Shown here piece after piece: positions 38,384-55,136 of a stretch of 64,000 nucleotides of DNA. A program made the position numbers and the translations under genes. The stretch's first letter is position 1. Every line of letters starts with the position of its first letter. The notes under the pieces are model-generated. The model saw only the letters and a program-made list of their open reading frames with translations. It did not search any database and was not told the DNA's origin. Origin of the DNA: Paenarthrobacter aurescens TC1 (GTDB lineage Bacteria; Actinomycetota; Actinomycetes; Actinomycetales; Micrococcaceae); contig CP000474.1 in NCBI GenBank assembly GCA_000014925.1, positions 868,001 to 932,000 of the forward strand. Reading direction: 5' to 3'.

Positions 38384-38398
38384 TGGACAACATGTCTG
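38384..38398. promoter_or_regulatory. 6-3-6 palindrome before gabD (IclR-type operator, site 1)
   Basis: TGGACA-ACA-TGTCTG. On the minus strand it reads CAGACA-TGT-TGTCCA. The same motif recurs at 38714-38728 and 55122-55136. The spacing and length resemble IclR-family operators, and a broken IclR gene lies 29 bases away. Confidence 0.6.
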
Positions 38399-38426
38399 CA
38401 GTGTGGGAAAAATAGTTTCCTGCAAT

Positions 38427-38716
38427 ATGACTGAGAATGCGGAGGCTTCCGTCGGAGGGAAGGTCCGATGACCAAGTCGGCTGCTGTTCTTAGAGCACTC
38501 GCCGAGCACTCGCCGCTTCGGGTGAGCACTGTCGGGCAGCCGCCTGAGGCGACGGGGGAGCCTATGAGTTCGCTATACAGGTTGCTTTCTTCGCTGGACG
38601 AAATTGGCGGGGTGGAACAAGGCACCCCACGAGGCAAGTTCCGGTTAGGCCTGGCATCCACCAGCAGGGCTGTGCTCGTGCTCGCACCCCCTCCATTCAG
38701 AATTCTCATGCCATAG
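38427..38716 (+). pseudogene. Truncated and frameshifted IclR-family regulator
   Basis: The 38468 frame (82 codons) encodes an IclR winged helix: AAVLRALAEHSPLRVSTV, MSSLYRLLSSLDEIGGVEQGTPRGKFRLGLA. It then ends in unrelated ASTSRAVLVLAPPPF and stops. The whole effector domain of about 170 residues is gone. An ATG at 38427 in another frame gives MTENAEASVGGKVR and ends in TGA overlapping the 38468 ATG, which suggests that the original N-terminus was shifted out of frame. It lies divergent to gabD and just before the transketolase operon, where an IclR regulator would belong. Confidence 0.7.
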
Positions 38717-38735
38717 ACAAGATGTCCACTTGACG
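38714..38735 (+). promoter_or_regulatory. 6-3-6 palindrome plus -35 before the transketolase operon (site 2)
   Basis: TAGACA-AGA-TGTCCA (38714-38728) is followed one base later by a -35-like TTGACG (38730-38735). No canonical -10 stands out at 17 bases. The motif shares AGACA-N3-TGTCCA with site 1 before gabD, read on the minus strand. Contact with the -35 region suits an IclR-type regulator. Confidence 0.6.
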
Positions 38736-38773
38736 GTAAATTGAATTCATACTTCGTTGAAAGAGGTTTATCC

Positions 38774-39661
38774 ATGAACACGAAAACTGAGGTCCTCACG
38801 GACCTTGAATTGAGCGGCATCATCCAGGAAGCCCGGTGGCGGGTCATAGACACCGTTGCATCCAGCCGAGCCGGCCACATCGGTGGACCCTTGTCCGCCA
38901 TGGACGTGCTTGTCTCCCTCTACTTCAGGCATCTGCGAATAGATCCACACAACCCCCAAGACCCGGACCGGGACCGATTCATCCTGTCGAAAGGCCACTG
39001 CGCCATCGGCCTCTACACCGTGCTTGCCCTGCGCGGGTACTTTCCGGTGGACGAGCTGGCCAGCTTTGATCACGGAAACTCCAGGCTTCAAGGCCACCCG
39101 GACATGCTCTTGACCCCCGGAGTGGATGCGTCCACCGGATCATTGGGCCAAGGTCTCTCCAGCGGTGCGGGTATGGCTCTCGGAGCTAAAAAGCTGGGAA
39201 AGGACTTCCATACCTGGGTCATGCTGGGCGACGGCGAGATCGAAGAAGGCATGGTGTGGGAGACGGTCCTCTCCGCGCCAAGGTTCGGGCTGGACAATCT
39301 CACCGCGATCGTGGACGTCAACGGACTCCAGCAATATGGCTGGCCAGCTGGTCCGGGGGACCGGTTCGACCGCAGCGAACCCGTGGGGCACGTGGACCTG
39401 GAGGCCGTGTTCACCGGCTTTGGATGGAACACGATCAGCATCAATGGGCACGACCTGAAAGAGATTTCCGACGCCCTCACTTTTGCGCAGTCGTTCCGCG
39501 GAGTCTCTGGCAAACCGACAGCGATAATTTCGAACACCACCAAAGGGTTCGGCGTCTCATTTACCCAAGGAACCTACAAGTGGCACAACGGTATAGCCAC
39601 TGAAGAACAACTGCGGATCGCCCGCGAAGAACTCGGTCAGAACATGGAGGCAGCCAAGTGA
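38774..39661 (+). CDS. Transketolase-like protein, N-terminal (TPP-binding) subunit
   Basis: A 295-residue subunit of a split transketolase. It binds the thiamine pyrophosphate diphosphate and metal: GHIGGPLSAMDVLVSLYF (about 34-51), SKGHCAIGLY and the GDGEIEEGMVWE...DVNGLQQ motif (about 157-190). Single-chain transketolase is about 650-700 residues; here the C-terminal half is the next gene. ATG 38774 follows AAGAGGTTTATCC. Split forms often act on special ketose phosphates in catabolic operons. First gene of a three-gene operon with a PfkB kinase. Confidence 0.9.
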   Translation: MNTKTEVLTDLELSGIIQEARWRVIDTVASSRAGHIGGPLSAMDVLVSLYFRHLRIDPHNPQDPDRDRFILSKGHCAIGLYTVLALRGYFPVDELASFDHGNSRLQGHPDMLLTPGVDASTGSLGQGLSSGAGMALGAKKLGKDFHTWVMLGDGEIEEGMVWETVLSAPRFGLDNLTAIVDVNGLQQYGWPAGPGDRFDRSEPVGHVDLEAVFTGFGWNTISINGHDLKEISDALTFAQSFRGVSGKPTAIISNTTKGFGVSFTQGTYKWHNGIATEEQLRIAREELGQNMEAAK

Positions 39662-40599
39662 GCACCAAAGCGCAGCGTCAGGTTTGGGGTGAGACATTAT
39701 CTGAACTCTCGGATCTGGATGAGCGCATCCTCGTGTTGGATGGCGATCTTGCGACGTCAACCAGGGCAGATATCCTGGCTGAGTCCCACCCCGACAGGTT
39801 CATTCAAGTAGGTATTGCCGAGCAGAACATTGTTGGCATGGCTTTCGGCCTGAGCACCCTGGGATACCGACCTTGGTTGTCCTCGTTCGGCGTCTTTTTC
39901 ACCCACCGGGCCCTTGACCAAGTGAGAATGCTGGTTTCACAAACCAAGGCCCCGGTCCGTATTGCTGCGGCCTACTCCGGCTTGTTGAACGGTTCCAGCG
40001 GCAAAACACACCAAGACATCGAAGACTTTGCCATTATGCGAGCCATGCCCAACATGACCGTCATCGCTCCCGCAGACGCAGTGGAAGCTCGCGCAGCGAT
40101 CAAGTGGGTAGCGGAGCACGACGGACCCGTTTACATTCGCTTCGCGCGGGACGCCGTTCAGGCCGTCTTTGAAGAAGACTACGTCTTTACCCCGCAGAAG
40201 CCTGTGGTCCTGCGGGACGGCTCCGATCTCACTGTTGTTTCTACGGGGGTGCAAACCTCAAGGGTCGCGGAAGCCTTGGATTCCCTTGAGTTGGAAGGCA
40301 TTCGGGCGAAGCACGTCCACGTCCCGATGTTGAAGCCCCTGGATGAGCAAGAGTTGCTGCATGAACTCCGCGGAGCACAGCTGATTGTCACGGTGGAAGA
40401 GCACAGCGTGCTGGGTGGACTTGGCGGACTCGTTTGCGAGCTTACTGCCGGCTCACAAGAACCCGCGCACGTGTCCCGGATCGGACTCGCGGATAGGTGG
40501 TCCGAGTCTGCACCCAACGATTTCCTTTTGGATAAGTACGGGTTGTCTCCGGCCAAGGTGGCCCAGCAGATCAAGGCCAGCCTGAACACGCGGAAGTGA
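39658..40599 (+). CDS. Transketolase-like protein, C-terminal subunit
   Basis: A 313-residue partner with the pyrimidine-binding domain (DGDLATSTRADILAESHPDRFIQVGIAEQNIVGMAFGLS, Glu in AEQN for TPP activation) and the C-terminal transketolase domain (VVSTGVQTSRVAEAL; VTVEEHSVLGGLGGLVCEL). The GTG start overlaps the stop of the N-terminal subunit (GTGA), so the two chains are translationally coupled, as for an equimolar complex. Confidence 0.9.
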   Translation: MSTKAQRQVWGETLSELSDLDERILVLDGDLATSTRADILAESHPDRFIQVGIAEQNIVGMAFGLSTLGYRPWLSSFGVFFTHRALDQVRMLVSQTKAPVRIAAAYSGLLNGSSGKTHQDIEDFAIMRAMPNMTVIAPADAVEARAAIKWVAEHDGPVYIRFARDAVQAVFEEDYVFTPQKPVVLRDGSDLTVVSTGVQTSRVAEALDSLELEGIRAKHVHVPMLKPLDEQELLHELRGAQLIVTVEEHSVLGGLGGLVCELTAGSQEPAHVSRIGLADRWSESAPNDFLLDKYGLSPAKVAQQIKASLNTRK

Positions 40600-41664
40600 A
40601 TGAAGGCCACCATGTCCAAGCCACTCCAGACCCTGAGCCCCCGTGGCACAGTGAATCAGGCCACGCCGGCATCTGCGTCGCGTATCGTCACCCTCACTCC
40701 CGCCCCGGCCATAGACAGGGTTTACTTCCTTGACCGAATGGTCGAGGGCCACGTCAACAGAGCCACCAGGGTGGAAACGTACCTCGCAGGCAAGGGCATC
40801 AATGTTGCTCGCGCCCTCAGCCTCGCCGGGAATGTTGCCACTGCCGTGGTACCCATCAACGCCGAGGACCTCGAACTGGCCGAGGGGAGCGAAAGCGTTC
40901 GCAAGAAGGTCTTCAAAACCGTGGAGGTCACTGCACCCACACGGGTGAACGCCATTATTGTGGACACAGACGGTGCCACCACGAACTTCAATGAGAGTGC
41001 GGCACCGCTGTCCACCGCAAAGTGGCAGCAACTCTGCGCGGCAACGCTTCATGAAGTCGAACGGGTCAAGGCGGATTGGCTCGTCCTCGGAGGATCGCTC
41101 CCGGCGGACATCTCCACCGGCCGCGAAGTCGATCCCGGGAATCTGTTCAGGGCGGCACGACGGGCTGGTGCCTCAACCTGCCTGGACACCTCAGGCGACG
41201 CTCTCAAGGCCTGGGCATCCCCAGCAAATCCGGTGGACCTCGTGAAACCAAACAAAGAGGAACTCGCTGATATCACCGGTACCCAGTTGAGGACCATGCG
41301 GGATGTTGTCTACGCCGCAAACCTGCTCCGGAAAAGGGGAGTTCGGACAGTCTTGGCCAGCTTGGGCAGTGACGGACTCGTTGAGGTGAACGAGCACGAG
41401 GTTCTCTGGGCACGGGGACCCTCCGCCAAAGTCCTCAACACCACCGGGGCGGGTGACGCTGCCTTGGCTGGATATCTCAGCGCGCTGCCTCACGCCTCAG
41501 CTGCCCCCTACACACGTGAGGTGGTTCGTGAGGCACTTGCCCGAGCGGTTGCCTGGGGTGCGCTCGCCGTCCAGGAACCCACCACCATCCTCCCAAGAGT
41601 CGTTTTCTTTCCAGAGGGCATCTCCGTTTCCGCACCTGACCCCGACTACCTGCTCTCCCGGTAA
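40600..41664 (+). CDS. PfkB-family sugar kinase (1-phosphofructokinase/tagatose-6-phosphate kinase-like)
   Basis: A 354-residue ribokinase-fold kinase. Substrate-binding start VTLTPAPAIDRVYFLDRMVEGHVNRATRVETYLAGKGINVARAL; the C-terminal PfkB signature NTTGAGDAALAGYL holds the catalytic Asp (about 288). The N-terminal pattern is that of phosphosugar kinases (FruK/LacC) more than ribokinase, so the substrate may be a ketose phosphate. The ATG at 40600 abuts the transketolase stop codon; an ATG at 40612 (MSKPLQTL), after AAGG, is an alternative. It supplies or removes phosphate around the transketolase step. Confidence 0.85.
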   Translation: MKATMSKPLQTLSPRGTVNQATPASASRIVTLTPAPAIDRVYFLDRMVEGHVNRATRVETYLAGKGINVARALSLAGNVATAVVPINAEDLELAEGSESVRKKVFKTVEVTAPTRVNAIIVDTDGATTNFNESAAPLSTAKWQQLCAATLHEVERVKADWLVLGGSLPADISTGREVDPGNLFRAARRAGASTCLDTSGDALKAWASPANPVDLVKPNKEELADITGTQLRTMRDVVYAANLLRKRGVRTVLASLGSDGLVEVNEHEVLWARGPSAKVLNTTGAGDAALAGYLSALPHASAAPYTREVVREALARAVAWGALAVQEPTTILPRVVFFPEGISVSAPDPDYLLSR

Positions 41665-41692
41665 GCCCGCTGTGACTTGCCGGCCACAAACC

Positions 41693-41736
41693 GCCAGGGC
41701 CCGAGCCTCGCAACCACGGGCCCTGGCTTCCCTTTT
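41693..41736 (+). terminator. Terminator of the transketolase-pfkB operon
   Basis: GCCAGGGCCCG (41693-41703) pairs with CGGGCCCTGGC (41717-41727). A pyrimidine-rich TTCCCTTTTG tail follows. It lies between the kinase and the convergent PRISE-type gene. Confidence 0.8.
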
Positions 41737-41751
41737 GCCAATGAATAGCGG

Positions 41752-42828
41752 CTAGGGGATGTAGCGGTTGCTGCGCAGGAAGCCCAAGTGGTTCAGGAGG
41801 CTCTGGTGGGTGTCTATGCAGTCGTGGAAGCCGGCCTGCCGGATCTTGATGGTGCTTTGAACCATGTCAAAGTCGGATGCCAGCCAGCCCTCGACAAATG
41901 GCCACGAGGCAATGGTCTCCCAAGAGCTTGGAAGGAGTCCGTGCGAGCTGACCATGGTTTGCCAGAGGTCATCCTTATCGCCCATGTGCTCAACCAGCGG
42001 CAGCGGCTGGGGCTCCGCCGTCGGCATATCGAAGAAGCCCGCCAGGTCCGCCCAAAGCTGGCTCCAACGGAAATTATCGCCGTTTGTGACATTAAAGATC
42101 TCTGCATGTGCGCTGTCAGCGGTCAGCGCCCACGAAATGGCGCGTGCCAGCAGCGCCGAGTCTGTGGCTTGATGCAGGGCGTTCCACGTTCCCGGGAGGC
42201 CAGGGAATCGTAACGGCACGCCCTGTTCCTTGCTGACTGCGGCGAAAACGGCCAATCCGTTAACGATGTTCATGGGAGATCCCGCGCTGAAGCCGAACAC
42301 TCCATCGGGGCGCAGGACTGTCCAGGAGAAATGCCGGTCGATAGCGCGCTGTTTCAGGGCGTCTTCCTGGTTGTTGTAGAAAATGGGTCCGAGGAAGCGC
42401 GGATCCGATTCCTTCGCGGGTGTCTTGTAGTGGCCGAGGTGTTCGCCATAGGACTTTCCGCCTCCCACCATGACCACTCTCGTGAGGATGGCACCCAGGG
42501 ACTGTAGGGCATCCAGTGTGTTCACCAGCATGGCGGTGTTCGGTGCCACGGCTGTCCGCATCGGCATGTCCAGGTAGGCGGCGTAGACCACGTGCGTGAC
42601 TGCCGTCAGGGATGCGAAACGCTCCTTCACTGACTCCGGATCGAGGAGGTCTACGCTTACGTGCCGGACGTTGCTCCGTTCTTTCAATTCCGCCAAGGGT
42701 CCACGCCTGGCAACTGTCACCACATCCCACCCTGCGTCCGCGAGGTGCAAAGCCGCGGCCCGCCCTATGACTCCGTGCGCTCCAACCACCATGACCTGGC
42801 CTTGGCTCACGTTCCGAACTTCTTCCAT
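41752..42828 (-). CDS. SDR of the PRISE type (progesterone 5-beta-reductase/iridoid synthase-like)
   Basis: A 358-residue extended short-chain reductase. The N-terminal NAD(P) motif is VMVVGAHGVIGRAAALHLADAGWDV (about 12-36) and the next strand VVTVARRG. The region VVMVGGGKSYGEHLGHYKTPAKESDPRF with FYNNQEDAL matches the PRISE pattern (KxYG, and FYY-like motif here FYNNQED). Family members reduce enones or act on aldehydes. ATG 42828 (MEEVRNVSQG) is chosen because homology begins about ten residues later; the ribosome site is poor. Last gene of the minus-strand SDR set. Confidence 0.8.
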   Translation of the reverse strand: MEEVRNVSQGQVMVVGAHGVIGRAAALHLADAGWDVVTVARRGPLAELKERSNVRHVSVDLLDPESVKERFASLTAVTHVVYAAYLDMPMRTAVAPNTAMLVNTLDALQSLGAILTRVVMVGGGKSYGEHLGHYKTPAKESDPRFLGPIFYNNQEDALKQRAIDRHFSWTVLRPDGVFGFSAGSPMNIVNGLAVFAAVSKEQGVPLRFPGLPGTWNALHQATDSALLARAISWALTADSAHAEIFNVTNGDNFRWSQLWADLAGFFDMPTAEPQPLPLVEHMGDKDDLWQTMVSSHGLLPSSWETIASWPFVEGWLASDFDMVQSTIKIRQAGFHDCIDTHQSLLNHLGFLRSNRYIP

Positions 42829-42953
42829 CACATTCCATTCCACACTGCTGTTTTCATCTGAAATGGTTTGGGCCGGGCCATAGGCCCGGCCCAAACCGTT
42901 ATGCACGCGTCGTGCGCGCGTTGTTGCTGTAGCGTTCGACGGCGGCCCCGCCC

Positions 42954-43919
42954 TTAGTGCGAGTCGACGCCTTCCAGCGCATCGTCGATCGCCACGGCCT
43001 GGACGTGATCGTGCGGGTCTCCCTTGTAAGCCCAGATCCGCTTGTATGAGCCGGATCCGAGATCGTCCAGGAGGTCAGGTCCTACGGGATTCCAACCCAG
43101 CTCCGTGCGAGCCTTCGCCGAGTCAACGCGGCTGTTGCTGGAAATTGCCACGTCCACCCAGCGCTGGCCCAATGCCTGGTACGCGACCTCGGGCGTGCAC
43201 GATTCGGCGGCCTGGAGCCCAACCAGCCGGGCGATGGTTTCGGCTATGTCTCCCATGCGGGCTTCACCGGCCGCCAGGTTGTAGGCGCTGCCGGCCGGAG
43301 CCTTGTCCAAGGCCAGGAAGTAGGCTTCAGCCAGGTCAGCGATGTACACATTGGACCAACGGTTGTCACCCCGGCCTACGTAGAGGCTGCGTCCGGATGT
43401 GATGGCCTGGCGGATGAGCAATGGCAACTGTTCGCTGGCGCCATCGCCAAAGATCATGGAGGGACGCAGGACTACGGTGTGAATGCCTCTGCTGGCGGCG
43501 TCGATCACGGCAAGGTCCGTGGCATACCGCGTGGCAACAATCTCAGCAGGGGAATGCTGGACCTCTTCGGTGTAGATTGTCGGGTTCAGCTCGCCCTGTG
43601 CCAGGTCCGTGTAGATACCCGTTCCGCTGGTGCGGATGAATTTCTTGTTGGTTCCCTCCAACGCCGAGAGGAACACCTGGGTGGATTCAGCATGATCGGC
43701 CGTTGCCGTATCGACAACTGCATCTGCAGCCAAAGCTGCTTCCCGGAGGACCGCAGTATCGTCGAGCCCTCCGAGTACAGGAGCGATCCCGCGGGCACGC
43801 AGCGCCTTTGCGCCGCTTTCGCTCCGGACGAGGCCGCAGACCGTGTGGCCCGCTTGGAGCAGCCGTTGGGAAACGGCCTGTCCGATGTATCCAGTGGCTC
43901 CAGTGACGAAGATATGCAT
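42954..43919 (-). CDS. NAD-dependent epimerase/dehydratase family protein (copy 1)
   Basis: A 321-residue extended SDR. NAD-binding motif IFVTGATGYIGQAVSQRLL (about 3-21). It lacks the usual YxxxK; instead IVATRYATDLAVIDAASRG occupies that site, with Tyr but no Lys four residues on, so it is an atypical member. The second half (LYVGRGDNRWSNVYIADLAEAYFLAL) is typical. The ATG follows AAGGAACCC. It is paralogous to the gene at 45865-46752, sharing the same layout and similar C-terminus. Confidence 0.82.
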   Translation of the reverse strand: MHIFVTGATGYIGQAVSQRLLQAGHTVCGLVRSESGAKALRARGIAPVLGGLDDTAVLREAALAADAVVDTATADHAESTQVFLSALEGTNKKFIRTSGTGIYTDLAQGELNPTIYTEEVQHSPAEIVATRYATDLAVIDAASRGIHTVVLRPSMIFGDGASEQLPLLIRQAITSGRSLYVGRGDNRWSNVYIADLAEAYFLALDKAPAGSAYNLAAGEARMGDIAETIARLVGLQAAESCTPEVAYQALGQRWVDVAISSNSRVDSAKARTELGWNPVGPDLLDDLGSGSYKRIWAYKGDPHDHVQAVAIDDALEGVDSH

Positions 43920-43960
43920 GGGGTTCCTTAGTGTTTGCGTAGTTTCTCTGGTGGGACTTT

Positions 43961-44299
43961 TCAGGCCAGTTGGCTTAGCTGCTCATCCTGCTGGCCCGAG
44001 GCCAGGATGCTGGGACGGTCGTCGTCCAGGAGGAGGCGTCGAATGCGTGAGCAGACGCTTTCGGCCAGGACTCCGATCGGGGCGTGATCGGGGTGTTCGA
44101 GGTACCGTTGGTAGTCCTCTTCCGAAGCGAAGACAGACACGTAACCGGTGACGTTGACATCGTCGAATGCGCGGATGACCCGTACGTCTTCCAGTTCCGG
44201 GATCTTTCCTGGAAGGCTTCGCAGAGCGTCCTCAAAGGAGGTCCGTGCTTCACTCGTGATGTCCTCGGGAAAGGTGAAGCTGACGAGTTGGTAGAACAT
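43961..44299 (-). CDS. Dabb-type (stress-responsive alpha/beta barrel) small protein
   Basis: A 112-residue ferredoxin-like alpha/beta protein: MFYQLVSFTFPEDI, RVIRAFDDVNVTGYVSVFASEEDYQRYLEHPDH. The HP.H-containing helix is the Dabb signature. Members act as dimers, often in aromatic or polyketide catabolism as cyclases, decarboxylases or binding proteins. The ATG follows CAGGAAACACG. It sits in the operon between the cupin (15 bases away) and epimerase copy 1. Confidence 0.82.
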   Translation of the reverse strand: MFYQLVSFTFPEDITSEARTSFEDALRSLPGKIPELEDVRVIRAFDDVNVTGYVSVFASEEDYQRYLEHPDHAPIGVLAESVCSRIRRLLLDDDRPSILASGQQDEQLSQLA

Positions 44300-44314
44300 C
44301 GTGTTTCCTGCGCC

Positions 44315-44764
44315 CTATCTCTGTTGTTGTTTCAGTTGTTCGGTATTGGATTTGTGTTCAACGGTGACGAAGACCAGCTGGGACTGGCCGATGTTCTCCA
44401 GATCGTGAAGTAGGTATTCGCCGGGTCCGAACTGAAAATGACGGGTATCACCCACTGCGTAGTCCACTTCCCTGGTGGTTCCATCGTCTTCGTGCTGCCT
44501 GCTGTGTCCGGCGCTGACAGCGGTCCAAAAGTAGTCCAGGACGTGGCGGTGGGCGGGGAGCCGGTGACCGGGATCCAGCCTGATCTCCCACACCCTCACG
44601 TCCTTCGTTTCGGAGACTATGCGCTGTCCCACCGTGTAGTTGTAGGCGTTGTCATGAAAGTCCTTGAGGGTTTCGGCGGACCAGCCATTGAAATTCCGGG
44701 CGACGACGATCCCTGCCCGCCGGCTTCCCTGCGGAAGGGTGGCTTGGTTTTCCTGGGTTGTCAC
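44315..44764 (-). CDS. Cupin-domain protein
   Basis: A 149-residue single-domain cupin. Motif 1 is RLDPGHRLPAHRHVLDYFWTAVSAG (two His ligands in AHRH) and motif 2 GDTRHFQFGPGEYLLHDLENIG (His near the end). Metal-dependent dioxygenases and isomerases share this fold, so an enzymatic step in the catabolic set is possible. I choose the GTG at 44762-44764 (VTTQENQAT) after GAGAGGACACTTC. An upstream GTG overlaps the SDR stop codon (GTGA) and would give 161 residues. Confidence 0.75.
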   Translation of the reverse strand: MTTQENQATLPQGSRRAGIVVARNFNGWSAETLKDFHDNAYNYTVGQRIVSETKDVRVWEIRLDPGHRLPAHRHVLDYFWTAVSAGHSRQHEDDGTTREVDYAVGDTRHFQFGPGEYLLHDLENIGQSQLVFVTVEHKSNTEQLKQQQR

Positions 44765-44796
44765 GAAGTGTCCTCTCGATATGGGGCGAGGGAGGA

Positions 44797-45591
44797 TCAC
44801 ACGAACGTCGTGACGCCTCCGTTGACGGTGTATTCGGCCCCGGTGATAAAGCCTGCGGCCGGTGAGGCGAGGAAGAGGATCACCGGTGCGACGTCGTCGG
44901 CTGTCCCCAGTCTCCCTACCGGGAGTCCTGAATCTTCCACGAAGGCCTGGATTGCTTCTTCCCGTGGCACATCGAATTTGCGGGCTTGGGAGTCAAGGAA
45001 ACCTCCGGGCCGATCCCACATTGGTGTGTAGATATGCGCCGGAGCTACAACGTTGGACCGGATTCCTTTTGGCCCGAATTCCCGCGACAGGAGCTTGGAC
45101 AAGGACAAAATTGCTGCCTTTGAAACGCTGTAATCCGGAGCGTCCACCAACGGGGTTCGTCCTGCTTCCGATCCAACGTGGATGATGGATCCGGAACCGG
45201 CTTCAAGCATGTGGGGAAGAACCTCCCGGCTCATCCTCACGTAGCCCATGAAGTTGAGCTCCATAGTGGATTCCCACATTTCATCGGTGGCATCCAGGAA
45301 GCCCTTCCGGACGGCTACAGCCCCGGCGTTGTTGACCAGGACGTCGATCCCGCCAAAGCGTTGCAAGGCCTGCCGCACTGCGGTCCCAGGGGTGCCGGGA
45401 AGGGAAAGGTCCGCGGAGATATGGAGGAAATGGTCGGCATTCGTGCTGGTTGTGCTTGCCATGTCCGCAGGTTCGCGGCTGACTCCAACAACGTTCGCTC
45501 CTTCCTTGAGGAAATGTTCGGCGGCCGCGAGCCCGATTCCTTGGCTCGCACCTGTAATGAGGACAGTTTTGCCACTGAATGTTCTGTTCAT
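44797..45591 (-). CDS. SDR family oxidoreductase
   Basis: A 264-residue classical short-chain dehydrogenase. NAD(P) motif TGASQGIGLAAAEHF (about 11-25), structural NNAG, catalytic region IIHVGSEAG ... DYSVSKAAI (Ser, Tyr, Lys), C-terminal TGAEYTVNGGVTTFV. The ATG at 45591 (MNRTFSGKTVLITG) is used; AGGAAGG lies 12 bases upstream. It heads a minus-strand series SDR-cupin-Dabb-epimerase-PRISE with short gaps. Confidence 0.88.
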   Translation of the reverse strand: MNRTFSGKTVLITGASQGIGLAAAEHFLKEGANVVGVSREPADMASTTSTNADHFLHISADLSLPGTPGTAVRQALQRFGGIDVLVNNAGAVAVRKGFLDATDEMWESTMELNFMGYVRMSREVLPHMLEAGSGSIIHVGSEAGRTPLVDAPDYSVSKAAILSLSKLLSREFGPKGIRSNVVAPAHIYTPMWDRPGGFLDSQARKFDVPREEAIQAFVEDSGLPVGRLGTADDVAPVILFLASPAAGFITGAEYTVNGGVTTFV

Positions 45592-46752: not shown

Positions 46753-46877
46753 TCTTGTTCCTTTCGGCTGAACGTCTACCAGACGCTTCGGATCCCGCAC
46801 TGTACGCCCGCCAACATCGTTTCATGGTAAATGCCGGGCCTCTAATAGAACTCCGTTTAGGCCGCCATGAGCTTTTG

Positions 46878-47843
46878 TTATGGCTGATGGTGGCTTTGCC
46901 TGCGGCGATGGCTTTCGGGAGGCTCAAGAACGGCGGGAAGTTTCTGTAGAAGTTCCACGTATCTTTTGGCCGTGGGTGAGAGCTTGGTGCGGCTGTACAC
47001 AGCCAGATCGCGGGTCAACGCCGGAAAAGGCTCCACAGCGACACCAGGACCGTCCATTGGCAGGGCATTTGCCGGGAGCAGGGCAACCCCGGCCCCTGCA
47101 CCGGCCAGTTTCACAGCGCTGTCTATTTGACCTGTGTGGAACACGAAGTCCGGAGTCACATTGGCGGATTGCATGTATTCACGGATGAACTCGCCCAGTC
47201 CATGGTTGCCCTCGAAAGTGATCCACGAATGCGCATGGAGTGCGCTCACTGGAAGGACTCCCCGCGACTGCGGCGCACCCTTGGGCACCTCGCCTTCGTA
47301 GGGCTGGACTTTCTTCAGGATAGGGTCATCCGGAGCCAGGTACAGCACGAAAATTTCATGTCCGAGATCGATGACGGGTCCACCCCACTGCTTGGGAGTG
47401 GGCCCTACGGCGAGATCGCCGGCACCGGATGCCACGGACTCTTCCAGCGTTCTCCTGTGGGCGTATTCCAACAGTGTGACCGGGATTTTGGGATTGTCCG
47501 TGTGCCAACGGAGCAGGGACGGGGGAAGGATTCCGGCGGCGATGGAAAGTACGGTGGCGATCACCAGTTCCCCCGCTTCTCCGCTGAGGACCTCGCGGGC
47601 GGCCTTCCGCGCATCTTCGGCTGCCTTCAACGCGATCCGGGCATGCTCGGCATAAGCCCGCCCGGCGGGGGTCAGGCGCACAGTTCCCGTAGTTCGCTCT
47701 ATGAGCTCCCCACCTGCTGCACGCTCAAGCGCACGGATCTGTTGACTGAGTCCCGGCTGGGAAACGCGAAGGATTTCAGCGGCGCGCGTGAAGGATCCCT
47801 CCTCGGCCACTACCAGTAGATACTCCATCTGCCTCAAAGTCAC
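46878..47843 (-). CDS. LysR-family transcriptional regulator
   Basis: A 321-residue regulator. The N-terminal helix-turn-helix (about 1-60) reads MTLRQMEYLLVVAEEGSFTRAAEILRVSQPGLSQQIRALERAAGG; the inducer-binding domain follows (about 90-300). The GTG at 47841-47843 is the natural start of the family pattern, and no clear Shine-Dalgarno precedes it. A T-N11-A box lies immediately upstream (47847-47861), overlapping its own promoter, and a near-identical box precedes the ABC importer. It is divergent from the amidohydrolase operon, the classical LysR arrangement. Confidence 0.88.
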   Translation of the reverse strand: MTLRQMEYLLVVAEEGSFTRAAEILRVSQPGLSQQIRALERAAGGELIERTTGTVRLTPAGRAYAEHARIALKAAEDARKAAREVLSGEAGELVIATVLSIAAGILPPSLLRWHTDNPKIPVTLLEYAHRRTLEESVASGAGDLAVGPTPKQWGGPVIDLGHEIFVLYLAPDDPILKKVQPYEGEVPKGAPQSRGVLPVSALHAHSWITFEGNHGLGEFIREYMQSANVTPDFVFHTGQIDSAVKLAGAGAGVALLPANALPMDGPGVAVEPFPALTRDLAVYSRTKLSPTAKRYVELLQKLPAVLEPPESHRRRQSHHQP

Positions 47844-47846
47844 GCT

Positions 47847-47861
47847 ATAAGCATAGGTTAT
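47847..47861. promoter_or_regulatory. LysR-type T-N11-A box, site 1
   Basis: ATAAGCATAGGTTAT, or ATAACCTATGCTTAT on the minus strand. It sits three bases upstream of the LysR GTG and about 160 bases before the amidohydrolase start codon. Twelve of fifteen bases match the palindrome at 50222-50236. Confidence 0.6.
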
Positions 47862-48019
47862 GTGAGCGGCTGGAAATAGCTCTTGGACTTTCCTGTGCGC
47901 CACGCCACAAGCTGGAGGCGTCAGATCATGCAAAGCGGCTTGGCGTCCGCAGTTCAACCGCCCGAGTGCCGAGTGCCGCCATTGCTGCAAGCTCTGCATC
48001 AATCCTTGGAGGAAAAACG

Positions 48020-49027: not shown

Positions 49028-49428
49028 CGACCACCCAGAACGCGGGCCCTTTGGAAGAGGACCTTCAAGAGGCACTGTCCTATATTCGGCCCCTGCTTAA
49101 GGGCCACTCCGGCGACCTGACAATCGCAGCTGTTGACGACGGTGTGGTCACCGTTGACTTCCACAATGCCTGCCACTCATGCCCTGCTATTTCGGTGACG
49201 TTCGCCGGCCTCGTCCGGTCCCGCCTGATGCAGGTGGACGGCGTCAAAGATGTCAGGTCTTCGCAGGTCCATGCATCACGGCGGGCCTTGGACCGCATCG
49301 CAGCCACGCTGGGAGGCCCTGCGCACTACAGGCCTGCCCAGTCCACCTCCAGATCGTCGCTTCCGCTGCTACCCAAGCAGCCCTCTGCCTGCCAACCGTT
49401 GGCAATCGCCGACGCAGGAGGACGTTGA
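49024..49428 (+). CDS. NifU C-terminal domain protein (Fe-S scaffold-like)
   Basis: A 134-residue protein with a NifU/Nfu domain (about 12-90): RPLLKGHSGDLTIAAVDDGVVTVDF, then the cluster-binding CHSCPA (CxxC, about 50-53) and the helix ISVTFAGLVRSRLMQVDGVKDV. The last 40 residues are unstructured. Its GTG overlaps the amidohydrolase stop codon (GTGA), so translation is coupled. A Nfu domain coupled to an amidohydrolase is unusual; it may deliver or hold an Fe-S cluster for an enzyme of this pathway. Confidence 0.85.
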   Translation: MTTTQNAGPLEEDLQEALSYIRPLLKGHSGDLTIAAVDDGVVTVDFHNACHSCPAISVTFAGLVRSRLMQVDGVKDVRSSQVHASRRALDRIAATLGGPAHYRPAQSTSRSSLPLLPKQPSACQPLAIADAGGR

Positions 49429-49429
49429 G

Positions 49430-50200
49430 ATGAGCAAACTCTCGTTCAGGCTCGACGACGGCGTGGCGATGGTGACCGGTGGGGCGTCCGGCATAGGTAG
49501 TGCCATAGCCATAGCGTTAGCCGAAATGGGCAGTCATGTGGCATTGGTTGACCTGCCTTCCAGTGATGCTTCGGCAACTCTAAAAGCAATCGAAGCAGAG
49601 GGAAGAAGTGCTGAGTTTATTGCGGCCGACGTGACCAGCGCTGAGCAGATGGAGGCTGCCGTGCGACGGGCAGAGGGCTCATTGGGGCCCCTGACTACAG
49701 CAGTGAATTCCGCGGGAATAGCCCATGCGGTTCCAGCGGAGGATATGACTGCTGAGCAGTTCGAGCGCGTCTTTCGAGTGAATGTCACCGGGGTCTTCCT
49801 TAGCTGCCAGGCGCAAGCGCGGGCTATGCGGGAGAACGGAGGGGGTGCAATCGTCAATTTGGCTTCCATCTCCGGAATTGTTTCCCATCGAGAGATGCTG
49901 CAGTCGCACTACAACAGTTCCAAAGCCGCTGTTGCGCACCTGTCGAAATCGCTGGCTACCGAATGGGCGCAGTACGGCATACGCGTCAACTCCATCTCTC
50001 CCGGTTTTACGCGAACGCCTATGAACGATCGCGCCGAAGTGGCGAGCATTCTGGATGAGGCCGTAACCCGCAACACACCGCTGGGGCGCCCCGCGGATCC
50101 GTTCGAAATGGCAGGGCCAGCACTGTTTCTCCTGTCTCCTGCCGCCAGCTTTTGCACGGGCGCGGACCTCGTGGTGGATGGAGGGTTCACCGCTTGGTGA
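49430..50200 (+). CDS. SDR family oxidoreductase
   Basis: A 256-residue classical short-chain dehydrogenase. NAD-binding motif VTGGASGIGSAIAIALAEMG (about 15-34), Asp in ALVDLPSS favouring NAD, NSAGIAHA, catalytic NLASISGI ... HYNSSKAAVAHL (Ser, Tyr, Lys) and TGADLVVDGGFTAW at the end. ATG 49430 follows GCAGGAGGACGTTGAG, one base after the NifU-domain stop codon. Third gene of the LysR-controlled operon; probably oxidises an alcohol of the pathway substrate. Confidence 0.9.
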   Translation: MSKLSFRLDDGVAMVTGGASGIGSAIAIALAEMGSHVALVDLPSSDASATLKAIEAEGRSAEFIAADVTSAEQMEAAVRRAEGSLGPLTTAVNSAGIAHAVPAEDMTAEQFERVFRVNVTGVFLSCQAQARAMRENGGGAIVNLASISGIVSHREMLQSHYNSSKAAVAHLSKSLATEWAQYGIRVNSISPGFTRTPMNDRAEVASILDEAVTRNTPLGRPADPFEMAGPALFLLSPAASFCTGADLVVDGGFTAW

Positions 50201-50220
50201 GCCCCTCTAGCCCCGGGGTC

Positions 50221-50237
50221 GATAACCCAGGGTTATC
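50221..50237. promoter_or_regulatory. LysR-type palindrome, site 2, before the ABC importer
   Basis: Perfect arms GATAACCC and GGGTTATC flank a central A. The inner 15 bases ATAACCCAGGGTTAT fit T-N11-A and match site 1 at 12 of 15 positions. It lies 188 bases before the binding-protein gene. Confidence 0.6.
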
Positions 50238-50252
50238 AGGTCTGAAGAATCT

Positions 50253-50284
50253 TTGACTTGGACTTATCGTGACGGTCCTCACAG
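50253..50284 (+). promoter_or_regulatory. CRP/GlxR-type site and candidate -35 before the ABC importer
   Basis: CGTGA-CGGTCC-TCACA (50268-50283) matches TGTGA-N6-TCACA at nine of ten fixed bases. A -35-like TTGACT lies at 50253-50258 just before it, and a weak -10-like CATAGT at 50312-50317 after it. The exact promoter is uncertain. Carbon-state control of a sugar importer would be expected. No gene lies in 50201-50421. Confidence 0.6.
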
Positions 50285-50424
50285 ACTGGAAATAACTTCG
50301 CAGGTTCCCGGCATAGTGGCCGGCCCGCGGTAAACCCCGCTACCAACCCACACTGCGAAGAGCCACACTCCCCAACCCTCATCACCGTTCGAGATTTTCT
50401 TACAGAGAGGTAAGGCCCATCGTG

Positions 50425-51459
50425 ATGAACGAATCAAGCCGCGCAACCCAAACAGAACCAGTCCACCTTGGACAGCAGAGGAAGCCGCGTTCCCGCCGCC
50501 CCCTGGGCGTCGCCTTGGCAATGCTTGCCACAGCCGCTTTGGCTCTGACTGGTTGCAGCGCGGACAACGCCGCCAATGCAGGCGGGACGGGCAAGAAGAC
50601 AATCGGTGTTTCGATGCCTGAATTTCATTCCCTCTTTTATGTCGCAGCTGTTGACGGCATGAAGAAGGCCGCTGCTGACGAGGGCTACGAGCTCGTGGTC
50701 CTCAATGCGAATGGCAATTCTTCGCAGCAGGTCAACCAGGTGCAGAACCTGGTGACACAGCAAGTCGGGGCAGTCATCTTTGCCATGCAGGATGCAACAG
50801 CCGGCGCAGCGGGAGTGGCGGAGGCGAAGGGCGCCAATATCCCCGTCATTGCCATCGACCAGCGCCCTCAAGGCGATGTGACCACGTTCATTGGCAGCGA
50901 CAGCGTTAAGGCGTCCACCGAGTTGTGTGACTACCTGGCCAAGCAGATGGGCGGCAAGGGTAACCTCGCCATCATCAAGGGTGTTCTCGGGTCTTCTACG
51001 GAAATTGAGCGTTCCAAGGGATGCGGAAGCATTTTGGAGAAGAACCCGGACATCAAGGTGGTCTCCACTACCAACGCTGACTGGGACGAGAACAAGGCCT
51101 ATAACGTGGCGCAGGACGTGCTGACTGCCAACCCGGAGCTGCAGGCAATCTTCGCGCAAAACGATGGAATGGCCCTCGGTGCTGCCAAGGCCGCAGCCCA
51201 AGCCGGCCGCTCCAACCTCAAGATCGTCAGCGTGGACGGTTTCCCACAGGTTTACGACGCCATCGAGTCCGGACAGGTTTTGGCCACGATGTCGCAGGAA
51301 CCGTATCAAATGGGCGAGCTTGCCGTCCGCACTGCCATCAAAGCCATGAGCGGCGAGGCCGGGTCCATTCAGAAGGAACAGTTGCAGCCCACCGTCCTGG
51401 TCACTAAGGAAAACCTCGAAGAGGCCCGTTCCGCCGGATACTACGGCCCCGCGAAATAG
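50425..51459 (+). CDS. Ribose-type ABC transporter substrate-binding lipoprotein
   Basis: A 344-residue lipoprotein of the RbsB/periplasmic-binding-protein class. Signal peptide with lipobox LALTGC (lipidated Cys near 44), then the type I fold: KTIGVSMPEFHSLFYVAAVDGMKKAA, VNQVQNLVTQQVGAVIF, IFAQNDGMALGAAKAAAQAGRSNLKIVSVDGF. It captures a sugar or polyol outside the membrane. ATG 50425 or the GTG at 50422 may start it; TAAGG precedes both. It is followed by a hairpin and then ATPase and permease genes. LysR and CRP/GlxR boxes lie upstream. Confidence 0.9.
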   Translation: MNESSRATQTEPVHLGQQRKPRSRRPLGVALAMLATAALALTGCSADNAANAGGTGKKTIGVSMPEFHSLFYVAAVDGMKKAAADEGYELVVLNANGNSSQQVNQVQNLVTQQVGAVIFAMQDATAGAAGVAEAKGANIPVIAIDQRPQGDVTTFIGSDSVKASTELCDYLAKQMGGKGNLAIIKGVLGSSTEIERSKGCGSILEKNPDIKVVSTTNADWDENKAYNVAQDVLTANPELQAIFAQNDGMALGAAKAAAQAGRSNLKIVSVDGFPQVYDAIESGQVLATMSQEPYQMGELAVRTAIKAMSGEAGSIQKEQLQPTVLVTKENLEEARSAGYYGPAK

Positions 51460-51463
51460 CAGA

Positions 51464-51498
51464 AGTCCGGCCTGCCCGGAGCTCGGGCAGGCCGGACT
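51464..51498 (+). repeat. Intra-operon stem-loop between binding protein and ATPase genes
   Basis: A perfect 15-bp stem (51464-51478 with 51484-51498) has a 5-base loop and no U tract. It begins 5 bases after the binding-protein stop codon. Such hairpins protect the upstream mRNA end and raise binding protein over membrane components. Confidence 0.7.
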
Positions 51499-51520
51499 CC
51501 ACCAAACTAAGAAGGAAATC

Positions 51521-53050
51521 ATGTCAATCCTGAGCACGGGACCGGCCCCTCTCAACGGAGGATCGCTGACCGAGGAGCCCAACGCCCTCAAGGGCATTGG
51601 CCTCACCAAACAGTACGGCGGCAACACTGTGCTGCATGGAGTGGACATCACCCTGAGAGCAGGCACGGTTCTTGGATTCATCGGGGAAAATGGCGCAGGT
51701 AAATCCACCCTGAGCTCCATACTGGCAGGCATCAAGTCTCCAGATGCCGGAGAGATGTTCCTGAATGGGCTTCCCTACGCCCCTACAGGCCCGGCTTCTG
51801 CGCTAAACAGCGGGGTGGCCATTATTCACCAGGAAATCAAGATGGTCCCGCGGCTAAGCGTTGCCGAAAACATGTTTCTGGGGCGGTGGCCGAAAAAACG
51901 GGGCCGCGTGGACACGACTTCCATGGCTGAGCAAGCCGAGGCAGCCTTGGCCGTTTTGGGAGCCAAGATCAACCCGCGTCGGGCAGTTGCCGGACTCTCC
52001 ATGGCGGCGCAGCAGGAAATAGAGATCGCAAAAGCCATCCTGCGGGATCCGTCCTACGTGATCTTCGACGAACCATCAGCTTCTTTGGGACAGGAGGAAA
52101 CGGAGAAGGTCCTCGATCAAATCCGGGTACTTCGTGACCGGGGTGCGGGCGTCATTTACATCAGCCATCGCCTGGATGAAATTTCGGCTATTGCTGACGA
52201 AATTCTTTGCCTCCGTGATGGGCACAGAGCTATGGCATGGGAGACGGGCGAAGTCAGCAAGGACCAGATGATCCGCGCCATGGTGGGCCGCGAGTTCGTT
52301 TACGCGCACGAAGCTCCGAAGCCGGCTGAGCCGGATGTCGTGTTGGAGGTCAAGAACCTGGCTCGTCAGGGAGTCTTCAGCGATATCTCTTTCTCTGTGC
52401 GCAAGGGGGAGATCCTTGGGCTGTCCGGCCTTGTAGGAGCAGGCCGCACCGAAGTTGTCAGGACCCTTGCCGGTGCCGATCGTGCCGACGCGGGCACCAT
52501 CGCGGTGGACGGCAAGCCCGTGAAGATCAGCAACGTTGCCAGTGCCATTCGACAAGGCATTTTCATGGTTCCTGAGGACCGCAAAGGCCAAGGGCTGAAC
52601 TTGGGCAGGAGCGGAGGAGAGAACATGGTCCTGCCGTGGGAAAAAACGCTGACCCCCAGCGGATTCGTGTCCAACAGGACAGTGAAGCGCGTGGAGCGAG
52701 AGCAGGCCCAGGAGTTGGATATCCGAGGGAACCTGGACATTCCTGTCCTTTTTCTCTCTGGAGGAAACCAGCAGAAAGTCCTGTTGGCGAAGTGGCTGGT
52801 CCGGAAACCAAAGGTCCTCATCCTCGACGAGCCCACGCGTGGAGTGGATGTTGGTGCAAAGGCCGCCATCTATGAAATTGTCCGCAAGCTGGCCGCTTCC
52901 GGGGTGGCCATCATTGTTGTTTCTTCCGAACTCGAAGAGGTTCTCGGCCTCTCGCACCGTGTACTCGTCATGGCGGGAGGGCAGCAGCGCGGAATCCTCA
53001 ACCGCGAGGAAGCCCTCCCGGACCGGGTCATGGAACTCTCAGTGCCCTAG
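51521..53050 (+). CDS. Ribose-type ABC transporter ATP-binding protein (two ATPase domains)
   Basis: A 509-residue RbsA/MglA-type ATPase. The first domain has Walker A GENGAGKST (about 55), signature LSMAAQQEIEIAKAIL and Walker B YVIFDEPSAS. The second has the degenerate loop GLVGAGRTEVVR, signature LSGGNQQKVLLAKWL and LILDEPTRGVDVG. Such uneven pairs are usual in this class. The ATG follows AGAAGGAAATC. It energises uptake with the next gene's permease. Confidence 0.95.
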   Translation: MSILSTGPAPLNGGSLTEEPNALKGIGLTKQYGGNTVLHGVDITLRAGTVLGFIGENGAGKSTLSSILAGIKSPDAGEMFLNGLPYAPTGPASALNSGVAIIHQEIKMVPRLSVAENMFLGRWPKKRGRVDTTSMAEQAEAALAVLGAKINPRRAVAGLSMAAQQEIEIAKAILRDPSYVIFDEPSASLGQEETEKVLDQIRVLRDRGAGVIYISHRLDEISAIADEILCLRDGHRAMAWETGEVSKDQMIRAMVGREFVYAHEAPKPAEPDVVLEVKNLARQGVFSDISFSVRKGEILGLSGLVGAGRTEVVRTLAGADRADAGTIAVDGKPVKISNVASAIRQGIFMVPEDRKGQGLNLGRSGGENMVLPWEKTLTPSGFVSNRTVKRVEREQAQELDIRGNLDIPVLFLSGGNQQKVLLAKWLVRKPKVLILDEPTRGVDVGAKAAIYEIVRKLAASGVAIIVVSSELEEVLGLSHRVLVMAGGQQRGILNREEALPDRVMELSVP

Positions 53051-53085
53051 CGCACCCACAACCTTCACAAAAGAAAGATAAGACT

Positions 53086-54120
53086 GTGCCCTCTACAAAC
53101 ACCGTCGGCCCCAAAGTCGAGCCAGGAGCCCGGGCGAATCCCGCCTCAGGTATTGGCCAGGAGTCAGTGCAAACGAGAATCAAACAGCTCGCCAAGAATA
53201 TTCCGGGGCCAGTGGTAGGGCTTGTGGTCATCTGCATTGCAATGTCGCTGCTCTCGCCCTACTTCCTGACGCCTAACAACCTCATCAACGTCCTTAGCCA
53301 GGTTTCGTACATTGGGATGATGGCAGTAGGCGCTGCCTTGGTCATCATCCTCGGTGGTATTGACCTTTCCGTGGGCTCCACCATGGCATTGTCGTTCATG
53401 GCCACCGCGTTCCTTTACAAGGAAATTGGCTTGCCGTTTTGGCTCGCCATGGTTTGCGGGCTCCTTTTGGGGGCTTTCATTGGCCTGGTGAACGGACTCT
53501 TGGTGACGTTCGGGCACGTCCAGCCATTTATCGCCACGCTGGCAACCATGTTCGCCGGGGCTGGGCTTGCTTTGTACATCACCAACGGAAACCCTGTTAT
53601 CGGCTTCCCTGATTGGTTCCTCGGCCTGTCGCGGACTCGCATGCTCGGAATACCACTGCAGGTGTATCTGATGCTGCTGGTCTTTGTCCTCGCAGCGCTT
53701 TGGTTGCGGTATAGGCCCTCCGGAAGGCAGCTGTATGCCATTGGTGGCAATGAAGAGGTTGCCCGCCTTTCGGGCATCAGCGTGAGGCTTGCCCAAGCGC
53801 GCGTCTATGTCATTGCCGGCTTCCTGGCCGCCTTGGCGGGACTGGCGGTAGGAGCCCGGCTGGATTCAGCGCAGCCAACCGCGGGCAGTGCTTCAGATCT
53901 CCTGAGCGTGATCGCGGCGGTAGTCATCGGCGGGGCCAGCCTGTCGGGCGGTGTTGGTTCGATGTTCAGTACGTTCATAGGGCTGCTCATCATCGGAGTA
54001 CTCAATAACGGGCTCACGCTCCTGAACGTGTCCCCGAATCTCCAGCCTGTGGTGATTGGAGTGGTCATTGTGCTGGCGGTGATCAGCGACCGCGGCAATC
54101 TCCCTCTCAAACGGACCTGA
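53086..54120 (+). CDS. Ribose-type ABC transporter permease
   Basis: A 344-residue RbsC-class permease with about ten membrane segments, after a 35-residue cytoplasmic N-terminus. The family motif VGAALVIILGGIDLSVGSTMAL (about 83-104) and the coupling-loop region GGNEEVARLSGISVRLAQ (about 223-240) are clear. It starts with GTG at 53086, 35 bases after the ATPase stop codon. The operon ends at a hairpin. Confidence 0.94.
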   Translation: MPSTNTVGPKVEPGARANPASGIGQESVQTRIKQLAKNIPGPVVGLVVICIAMSLLSPYFLTPNNLINVLSQVSYIGMMAVGAALVIILGGIDLSVGSTMALSFMATAFLYKEIGLPFWLAMVCGLLLGAFIGLVNGLLVTFGHVQPFIATLATMFAGAGLALYITNGNPVIGFPDWFLGLSRTRMLGIPLQVYLMLLVFVLAALWLRYRPSGRQLYAIGGNEEVARLSGISVRLAQARVYVIAGFLAALAGLAVGARLDSAQPTAGSASDLLSVIAAVVIGGASLSGGVGSMFSTFIGLLIIGVLNNGLTLLNVSPNLQPVVIGVVIVLAVISDRGNLPLKRT

Positions 54121-54138
54121 TGCACCCACTTAACCGGC

Positions 54139-54176
54139 GAAGCTCCCTGCGCGAATTGTGCAGGGAGCTTTCGTTC
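54139..54176 (+). terminator. Terminator of the ABC importer operon
   Basis: AGCTCCCTGC (54141-54150) pairs with GCAGGGAGCT (54160-54169), followed by TTCGTTCG. It lies 20 bases past the permease stop codon. Confidence 0.78.
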
Positions 54177-54265
54177 GCTCACCCAACGGGCTGGGAGGCC
54201 TGCTTCCGGGGCCGCCCGGAAACCGTCCCGGAGAAACCAGGCGATTCCGGGGGCCGGCAACGCTT

Positions 54266-55051
54266 CTAAAGGTCGTTGGGATTGGGCTGGCCGTTCCAGG
54301 CCGTCACACCACCATCTGCCGCAAGGATGTGTCCGTTGATATACGAGGCATCGGACGAGGCCAGGAAGGTGAAGGCCGGTGCTATTTCCTCGGGTGCCGC
54401 TATGCGGCCCAAGGGGATGGAGCGTCCGAACGCCTCCTTCAACCCCGCGGTGGAGTCGAGGTTCTTCTGCAGCAGGGGCGTGAGGACCGGTCCTGGGGCC
54501 ACAGCATTGCAGCGCACACCCCGTTGGGCGTAGTCCACCGCAACGCTGCGCGTGAAGTTGATGACGGCACCCTTCGAGGCGTCGTAGGCGGCGTAGTTGT
54601 AATCCGCGCCGATGCCCGAGACGCTTGCCGTATTGACGATGTTGCCTTGGGACTGGATCAGGTGGGGAAGCGCCGCCCGTGTTGCGTAGAACAAACCGTC
54701 AACGTTGACCTTCATGACGGACCGCCACAGCTCGTTCGATGTAGTTGCTGCGGGGCCGGTCGGAGCGATTCCAGCGTTGTTAACCAAGACATCCAGCGCC
54801 CCTAGTTCTTCCACGCTTTCATTGATGATTGCCTCGATGGCATCGGGATCACCCACGTCGGCGACCTTGAGCGTTATCTGGCCGGACAACACGGAGTTCC
54901 GGTCACGGAACCGTGCCATCGAATCTTCGCTAAGGTCCACTCCGATGACGTTTGCTCCTTCGAGGAGGAACCTCTTGAAGACGGCGGCGCCCAACCCGGA
55001 CCCCGCCCCGGTCACCATGACTGTTTTTCCCAAGAATCGATTCTGATCCAT
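54266..55051 (-). CDS. SDR family oxidoreductase
   Basis: A 261-residue classical short-chain dehydrogenase. VMVTGAGSGLGAAVFKRFL (about 10-28), GVDLSED with the NAD-favouring Asp, NNAGIAPTG, catalytic NTASVSGIG ... NYAAYDASKGAVINF (Ser, Tyr, Lys) and ADGGVTAWNG. The ATG follows GGAGTAGGAC. It is divergent from another SDR; a 6-3-6 palindrome shared with gabD and transketolase lies between them. Confidence 0.9.
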   Translation of the reverse strand: MDQNRFLGKTVMVTGAGSGLGAAVFKRFLLEGANVIGVDLSEDSMARFRDRNSVLSGQITLKVADVGDPDAIEAIINESVEELGALDVLVNNAGIAPTGPAATTSNELWRSVMKVNVDGLFYATRAALPHLIQSQGNIVNTASVSGIGADYNYAAYDASKGAVINFTRSVAVDYAQRGVRCNAVAPGPVLTPLLQKNLDSTAGLKEAFGRSIPLGRIAAPEEIAPAFTFLASSDASYINGHILAADGGVTAWNGQPNPNDL

Positions 55052-55121
55052 GTCCTACTCCATCTTTCATCGAGCCAAGCGCCGTAAAGTCAAGAAACGG
55101 CCGGGCATAATTATCGCAATA

Positions 55122-55136
55122 CAGACAGTTTGTCCG
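55122..55136. promoter_or_regulatory. 6-3-6 palindrome between divergent SDR genes (IclR-type operator, site 3)
   Basis: CAGACA-GTT-TGTCCG. The ten core bases AGACA ... TGTCC are identical to sites 1 and 2. It lies 70 bases before the minus-strand SDR and 57 bases before the plus-strand SDR. Confidence 0.55.

Follow-up and report, generated by a model that had tools for sequence, protein, structure and literature searches.

We analyzed a 64,000-nucleotide stretch of Paenarthrobacter aurescens TC1 DNA (the window; C1:868001-932000 of a 5.23-Mb genome in three contigs) in which a short palindrome recurs before a gabD-like aldehyde dehydrogenase gene, before a split-transketolase operon (tktN-tktC-pfkB), and between two divergent SDR oxidoreductase genes (sdrA and sdrB). 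On the basis of its sequence, placement, and neighbors, this 15-bp palindrome is most likely the inner part of an operator that is bound by the products of a tandem pair of IclR-family genes, here called IclR and IclR2. The full operator spans 31 bp and reads YCR-N5-YRGACA-N3-TGTCYR-N5-YGR (broader form, YCR-N5-YRGAC-N5-GTYYR-N5-YGR), and the palindrome lies where two overlapping IclR-type sites meet. The four boxes, which alternate in direction, would provide two such sites in an arrangement suited to a tetramer. The original prediction had noted that the 6-3-6 layout of the 15-mer resembles IclR operators; the IclR-type assignment is supported by sequence, but the 15-mer is only the inner portion of the four-box element.

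The window contains exactly three copies of the palindrome's ten-base core, AGACA-N3-TGTCC, at 38385-38397 (minus strand), 38715-38727 (plus strand), and 55123-55135 (plus strand), compared to a mean of 0.17 copies after dinucleotide shuffling, and none of 100 shuffles reached three. All three 15-mers are intergenic according to our own gene calls, with distances to the gene starts of 45 nt for gabD, 45 nt for tktN, and 70 and 57 nt for the divergent SDR genes. These counts bear out the original prediction of three intergenic copies, and its estimate of ∼0.1 copies expected in 64 kb was about right. When up to two mismatches to the 15-mer were allowed, 22 matches were present in the window versus a shuffle mean of 13.6, and 6 of 100 shuffles reached 22; because this excess is small, the evidence lies in the exact cores and their context.

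Across the genome, 13 copies of the core were found (one for the reversed control). As classed with a simple codon-usage gene caller, four of these are in two split-transketolase clusters (the three window copies and C1:3938343), four are in predicted genes, two span start codons, and three are at other intergenic places. A YCR box eight bases upstream of the core accompanies only four of the 13, all of them in the two clusters; YGR is found downstream in three of these four, the SDR copy being without it, and the remaining nine cores have neither outer box. The core alone was therefore rejected as a genome-wide signature. In contrast, the broader 31-bp form matched four places (C1:906376, 906706, 3932635, and 3938334; reversed control, one), two in the window cluster and two in the cluster at 3.93 Mb, and since this pattern was drawn from an alignment that included these sites, the informative part is the absence of other matches. 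A looser pattern, RGACA-N3-TGTCY, matched 40 places in the genome (reversed control, four) and was rejected as a description of the regulon, since 23 of its 25 GGACA...TGTCC places are inside predicted genes. The many genic matches indicate that the core alone is not specific and that the flanking boxes separate the set. The original prediction had named many copies inside genes as the outcome that would speak against a regulon; the genome-wide scan revealed this in part, and none of the genic copies of the exact core has an outer box. Chance matching would account for 13 ten-base cores in 5.2 Mb, which is of the expected order, and for the nine that lack outer boxes, but it fits neither the enrichment in the window nor the conservation at orthologous promoters and in other genera, and as an explanation of the cluster sites it is exceedingly improbable.

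The architecture of the operator was derived from 25 sites that precede tktN. YCR is present upstream in 23 of the 25 and YGR downstream in 23, and the hexamer TANNNT lies exactly 8 nt past the 15-mer in 20 (next best offset, 2). When the same sites were viewed in the direction away from the gene, YGR was still found in 23 whereas TANNNT was found in one. Because the outer boxes are equal from both sides and TANNNT is one-sided, we assign the former to a symmetric operator and the latter to a directional -10 element. The predicted -35 element is the upstream hexamer of the operator itself (e.g., TAGACA), and the predicted -10 is 17 nt away; by these sequence assignments the operator overlaps the predicted promoter. 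With its upstream half serving as the -35 and the -10 following directly, binding should block RNA polymerase, and steric repression would be the simplest mode of control: a regulator seated on the promoter would keep the polymerase away until some metabolite releases it.

The same geometry could arise from a strong core promoter (TAGACA-N17-TANNNT) of which the palindrome is a by-product, given that the upstream half is the -35 and that TANNNT follows at the proper distance at most tktN sites. This explanation is very unlikely, as the spacer includes a GT-N-C half that never varies and a YCR box is conserved in the upstream flank, neither of which a promoter needs; furthermore, the outer boxes are mirror-symmetric and TANNNT is not, and divergent promoters preserve both halves despite changes in the center. 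The sdrA-sdrB promoter retains the core in the three genomes compared (including G111 and G150) with a varying center, and in the second cluster five genomes share CGGAC and TGTCTG at the divergent MFS-SDR promoter and differ only in the intervening bases. A fixed asymmetry, with the AGACA half always upstream, was considered as the mark of a heteromer and rejected, since sdrA and sdrC have GGACA as the upstream half, and it is this half that goes with the better -10.

To return to the IclR-type operator, a search with the window's TktN yielded 34 loci, of which the 19 actinobacterial ones (L087-L105) were examined; the 15 others (L106-L120, TktN 44-51% identical) fell outside the motif examination. 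Among named records the closest TktN sequences are those of Arthrobacter sp. M2012083 (L087, 97%) and Paenarthrobacter nitroguajacolicus (L088, 93%). The degenerate core YRGAC-N5-GTYCR is complete at 17 of 17 tktN promoters outside the genus, compared to a mean of 0.084 and a maximum of two in 1000 dinucleotide shuffles, in a test that used 150-bp stretches around chosen sites and a core fixed after these had been viewed. The other two window-type genomes, G111 and G150, each have the gabD, tktN, and sdr operators, and the gabD site, found in all three genomes, has one core base altered in G150. In 18.8 kb of the Curtobacterium plasmid NZ_CP126261.1 only two positions score at least 12, one before tktN and one before iolB, beside an IclR pair; this locus was not used for the matrix but is close to Curtobacterium loci that were. 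Tandem IclR and IclR2 genes are located within 10 kb of tktN at all 19 actinobacterial loci examined, and the HTH_IclR and IclR_C domains both score above their cut-offs in 8 of 8 proteins (the pairs of L087, L089, L105, and L047, the last being the cluster at 3.93 Mb). The invariable presence of this pair (no systematic count was made for other regulator families), together with box sequences and spacing that follow published IclR classes (PMC8222616), argues against the palindrome being used by a different family to which the IclR linkage is incidental. We consider that option unlikely; in its favor, the window block includes a LysR gene, and the plasmid cluster has a LacI gene nearby.

IclR operators have been divided into group 1 (TGTYCRYW3RYGRACA and variants) and group 2 (TGRAACAN1-2TGTTYCA), with three-box sites and tandem sites spaced by 18-22 nt also described (Suvorova and Gelfand 2021, PMC8222616). 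By the main text of that survey, the operator described here resembles group 1 in its GTYCR/YRGAC boxes, the N5 within each outer pair, and the alternating box direction, and the centers of its two outer pairs, which are group 1-like and 20 bp apart by column positions in the tktN alignment, are within the published tandem range. The inner length of 15 bp is shared with group 2. The inner pair, however, is YRGACA-N3-TGTYCR rather than TGRAACA-N1-2-TGTTYCA, which does not conform to group 2, and the outer boxes keep about half of the group 1 box (YCR/YGR plus some of the next bases) rather than the full half-box. Moreover, the published sites have three boxes and this one has four. The PcaU, PobR, and HmgR sites (as cited in PMC8222616) consist of a palindrome plus an external half-site repeat, giving three boxes, whereas the four-box operator overlaps the predicted -35 and -10 and adjoins two IclR genes. 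The best NCBIfam models for IclR and IclR2 are BhcR, KdgR, and PcaR/PcaU, which have the same family and domain order, but the scores (119 bits for IclR and 101 bits for IclR2 versus 350 for BhcR) are far below the curated cut-offs, and the pair is thus not assigned to any named subfamily. PcaU, PobR, and HmgR act on aromatic catabolism. The main text of PMC8222616 mentions neither Arthrobacter, Micrococc-, nor transketolase, and its 181 orthologous groups, given in supplementary tables, may include this one. A literature search of titles and abstract openings, covering few subscription papers or preprints, returned nothing on this operator, on an IclR pair with split transketolase, or on transketolase in inositol breakdown. 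The pair is apparently uncharacterized and its operator apparently belongs to a known regulator family; the pair now gains a predicted operator, promoter geometry, and regulon.

In L087 and L088 an intact tandem IclR-IclR2 pair is situated between gabD and tktN. The alignment of the window with L087 stops at 38654 (L087 8543) and restarts at 38702 (L087 9930), so that by sequence comparison a deletion of ∼1.4 kb has removed both local regulator genes in this strain, with all three operators kept. The deletion ends 12 bp before the tktN core and 4 bp before the 31-bp operator. What is left of the first gene encodes 82 codons that are 73-74% identical to the intact L087 IclR over 62 amino acids, according to a whole-genome search with 18 matches that replaced an earlier subset of 30 of 47 HTH_IclR loci. 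The remnant has the HTH_IclR domain only (25.9 bits, cut-off 22) and no C-terminal domain, which falls short of the full IclR-family domain set. The original prediction of a damaged local IclR regulator is supported by sequence as to the damage; two adjacent regulator genes are affected, however, not one, with IclR mostly and IclR2 entirely lost. Close TktN relatives are found in 7 of 206 genomes of the genus and window-type matches (93-100%) in three (G000, G111, and G188), of which only this strain shows the deletion; G111 is the L088 genome, and G188 appears to be the L087 genome, since its contig places coincide with those of G150.

The second cluster, L047 (C1:3927600-3943400), comprises genes for an IclR2-IclR pair, a zinc-type alcohol dehydrogenase, tktN, tktC, a short pfkB piece, an SDR, a second dehydrogenase, an MFS transporter, and another SDR, with one operator before tktN and the other between the divergent MFS and SDR genes. 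Its TktN and TktC are 71% and 67% identical to those of the window, and its IclR shares 66% and its IclR2 54% identity with the L087 counterparts. Apart from this IclR at 3.93 Mb (66%), the genome has no close intact relative of the lost IclR, the other intact matches being at ≤34%. The L047 and L087 pairs share the segments EPxSSLYRLL and MPRPSVYRL, which we take to be the recognition helices. The original prediction had offered an intact IclR paralog elsewhere as one possibility, and by sequence the 3.93-Mb pair, which lies beside two operators, is such a paralog; the proposal of one regulon is likewise supported and extends to the paralogous split-transketolase cluster. A single regulon would then include gabD, the tktN-tktC-pfkB operon, the SDR pair, and the 3.93-Mb cluster. 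Because the operator is the same, the helix segments are near-identical, and the operators have not decayed, the obvious candidate for control in trans is the 3.93-Mb pair. With the local pair gone it would be the most likely surviving regulator, and the sequences tilt us somewhat toward the view that it still controls the window's sites.

A serious rival agrees on the nature of the sites and differs on their present state: they would be genuine IclR operators to which nothing binds since the deletion, with the window operons expressed constitutively and the sites surviving as relics. This explanation fits the loss of IclR2 in its entirety and of the greater part of IclR, and also the DNA identity of the remnant to L087, which at 75% is below that of gabD (∼84%) and the tkt stretch (∼93%), as in a decaying gene. 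The site scores for gabD, tktN, and sdr, however, are 19.0, 20.4, and 20.3 here, and thus not lower than in the L087 genome (18.7, 22.6, and 17.8) or the L088 genome (19.8, 20.8, and 19.6), for a matrix built from these sites among others. In addition, the genome still has a close paralogous pair whose helix segments are nearly identical, and orphaned operators therefore appear to us a possible but rather doubtful account. The strain, which has lost the local regulators but retains the operators and a single paralogous pair, presents a natural experiment on whether a paralog keeps an orphaned regulon controlled.

Several observations weigh against an operator for the IclR-IclR2 pair. Many of the sites tested had also gone into the position weight matrix and the degenerate patterns. 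The exact core of the original prediction precedes tktN at one of 17 non-genus loci (L095), and the strict operator pattern, when searched in 396 genomes of the order, matched only in this genome (reversed control, two) and gave no new positives. In 19 contexts other than tktN (gabD, and divergent promoters from both sides) the rule is weaker, with YCR in 16, YGR in 16, and TANNNT at +8 in only 8. The L047 tktN site has no TANNNT at +8, the window sdr site is missing one outer box, and no simple covariation of helix residues with operator base 13 was seen by eye. Finally, the deletion also fits a derepressed, decaying regulon.

With regard to the pathway, similar sites precede iolB (identified by NCBIfam) in the Microbacteriaceae loci L089, L090, L092, L094, and L096. 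IolC (TIGR04382) scores above its cut-off in 14 of 17 non-genus genomes and below it in those of L092, L104, and L105; a general replacement of IolC by transketolase in inositol breakdown is therefore not supported, and such a bypass is only speculation. The strain's own inositol stretch (L180; iolD and iolC) has one degenerate-core match, inside a predicted gene. Much of the window gene set (sugar ABC-transporter genes, an amidohydrolase, SDRs, an epimerase or PRISE-like gene, and the split transketolase) is found again in Nakamurella leprariae (L104) and Microbacterium sp. BR1 (L105), both of which have the IclR pair, suggesting that these genes probably belong to one pathway. A single operator groups the split transketolase, the GabD-like dehydrogenase, and, in Microbacteriaceae, inositol genes, an arrangement that points to a pathway yet to be worked out. 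As a tentative proposal to which we give a low probability, IclR and IclR2 would act as an obligate hetero-oligomer on a four-box operator and control, across Micrococcales, a catabolic module whose keto-sugar acid would be cleaved by a split transketolase instead of an aldolase, and this module would have been rewired here to the paralogous pair 3 Mb away; in the inositol-linked versions the substrate would perhaps be 5-keto-2-deoxygluconate, with the resulting semialdehyde passing to the GabD-like enzyme. In 396 genomes of the order a close tktN relative was found only in this genome, and no relative was found in viral contigs; among plasmids a single record was found, the Curtobacterium plasmid that served as the additional locus.

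Table 1. Positions of operators, predicted promoter elements, and genes in the window.
Feature	Positions	Strand	Remarks
31-bp operator before gabD (core 38384-38398)	38376..38406	-	Site at same place in G150 (L087) and G111 (L172)
Predicted -10 of gabD, TAGAAT	38370..38375	-	17 nt from CAGACA (-35, 38393-38398)
31-bp operator before split-transketolase operon (core 38714-38728)	38706..38736	+	Pattern and outer boxes
Predicted -10 of tktN, TAAATT	38737..38742	+	17 nt from TAGACA (-35, 38714-38719)
Operator between divergent SDR genes (core 55122-55136)	55114..55144	.	sdrB-side outer box TAG, not YGR; no strict 31-bp match
Predicted -10 of sdrA, TAATTA	55108..55113	-	17 nt from CGGACA (-35, 55131-55136); weaker, with TA in place but not TANNNT
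Remnant of first IclR gene, 82 codons, helix-turn-helix only	38468..38716	+	TAG within the operator's TAGACA serves as stop codon
Deletion junction, 47 bp	38655..38701	.	Replaces ∼1.39 kb of L087 (8544-9929): rest of IclR and all of IclR2
gabD-like aldehyde dehydrogenase	36845..38338	-	Best model SSADH, 553 bits versus cut-off of 646
tktN, transketolase N-terminal half	38774..39661	+	Gene call and family model
tktC, transketolase C-terminal half	39658..40599	+	Gene call
PfkB-family sugar kinase (1-PFK/hexose kinase subfamily)	40600..41664	+	Family model
LysR gene inside window block	46878-48002		
sdrA, SDR oxidoreductase	54266..55051	-	Family model
sdrB, SDR oxidoreductase	55194..55988	+	Family model

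The gene caller was crude, missing among others an SDR gene at 49250 of the window, IclR2 in L088, IclR in L098, tktN in L101, and the IclR pair in L105; the missed genes were recovered by tblastn or by frame reading. The DNA identity to G150 is 99.0% for the second cluster (L047 versus L179) and 75%-93% for pieces of the window block (36225-58769 versus L087 and L174), a difference which suggests that the window block was recombined or acquired separately. The pfkB gene of the second cluster is a 130-residue C-terminal piece both here (L047:6954-7343) and in G150 (L179:4354-4743), compared to 320-366 residues in L175-L178.

Two further sites were noted elsewhere in the genome. At C1:2428177 (L038:4978) a copy of AGACATAATGTCC without outer boxes precedes a gene that is cytochrome oxidase subunit-like by eye; a copy with the same center is present once each in G008, G072, G111, and G150 and is not found in G042 or G123. 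At C3:28151 (L053) the symmetric palindrome AGACAGTATGTCT is flanked by a small gene and by a divergent gene, TetR-like by eye, whose product may be the regulator that uses this palindrome as its own site. Both were rejected as members of the regulon because neither matches the extended operator. Gulosibacter chungangensis has two IclR-IclR2 pairs near one tktN (L098:4417-5888 and 8355-9853). Following the split-transketolase operon of Curtobacterium (L097:11814-15124 and L096:14760-16220) are genes for GTP-dependent phosphoenolpyruvate carboxykinase (named in L097) and glyceraldehyde-3-phosphate dehydrogenase (named in L097 and L096), which link the operon to gluconeogenic steps. The 45000-81538 stretch of the Curtobacterium plasmid (L197 and L198; typed non-mobilizable) contains iolG, iolB, iolD, a succinate-semialdehyde-dehydrogenase gene, the IclR pair, tktN/C, PfkB, and phosphoenolpyruvate carboxykinase, and no gene named iolC appears in its incomplete gene table for this stretch. 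TraM- and relaxase-type genes are located near this cluster.

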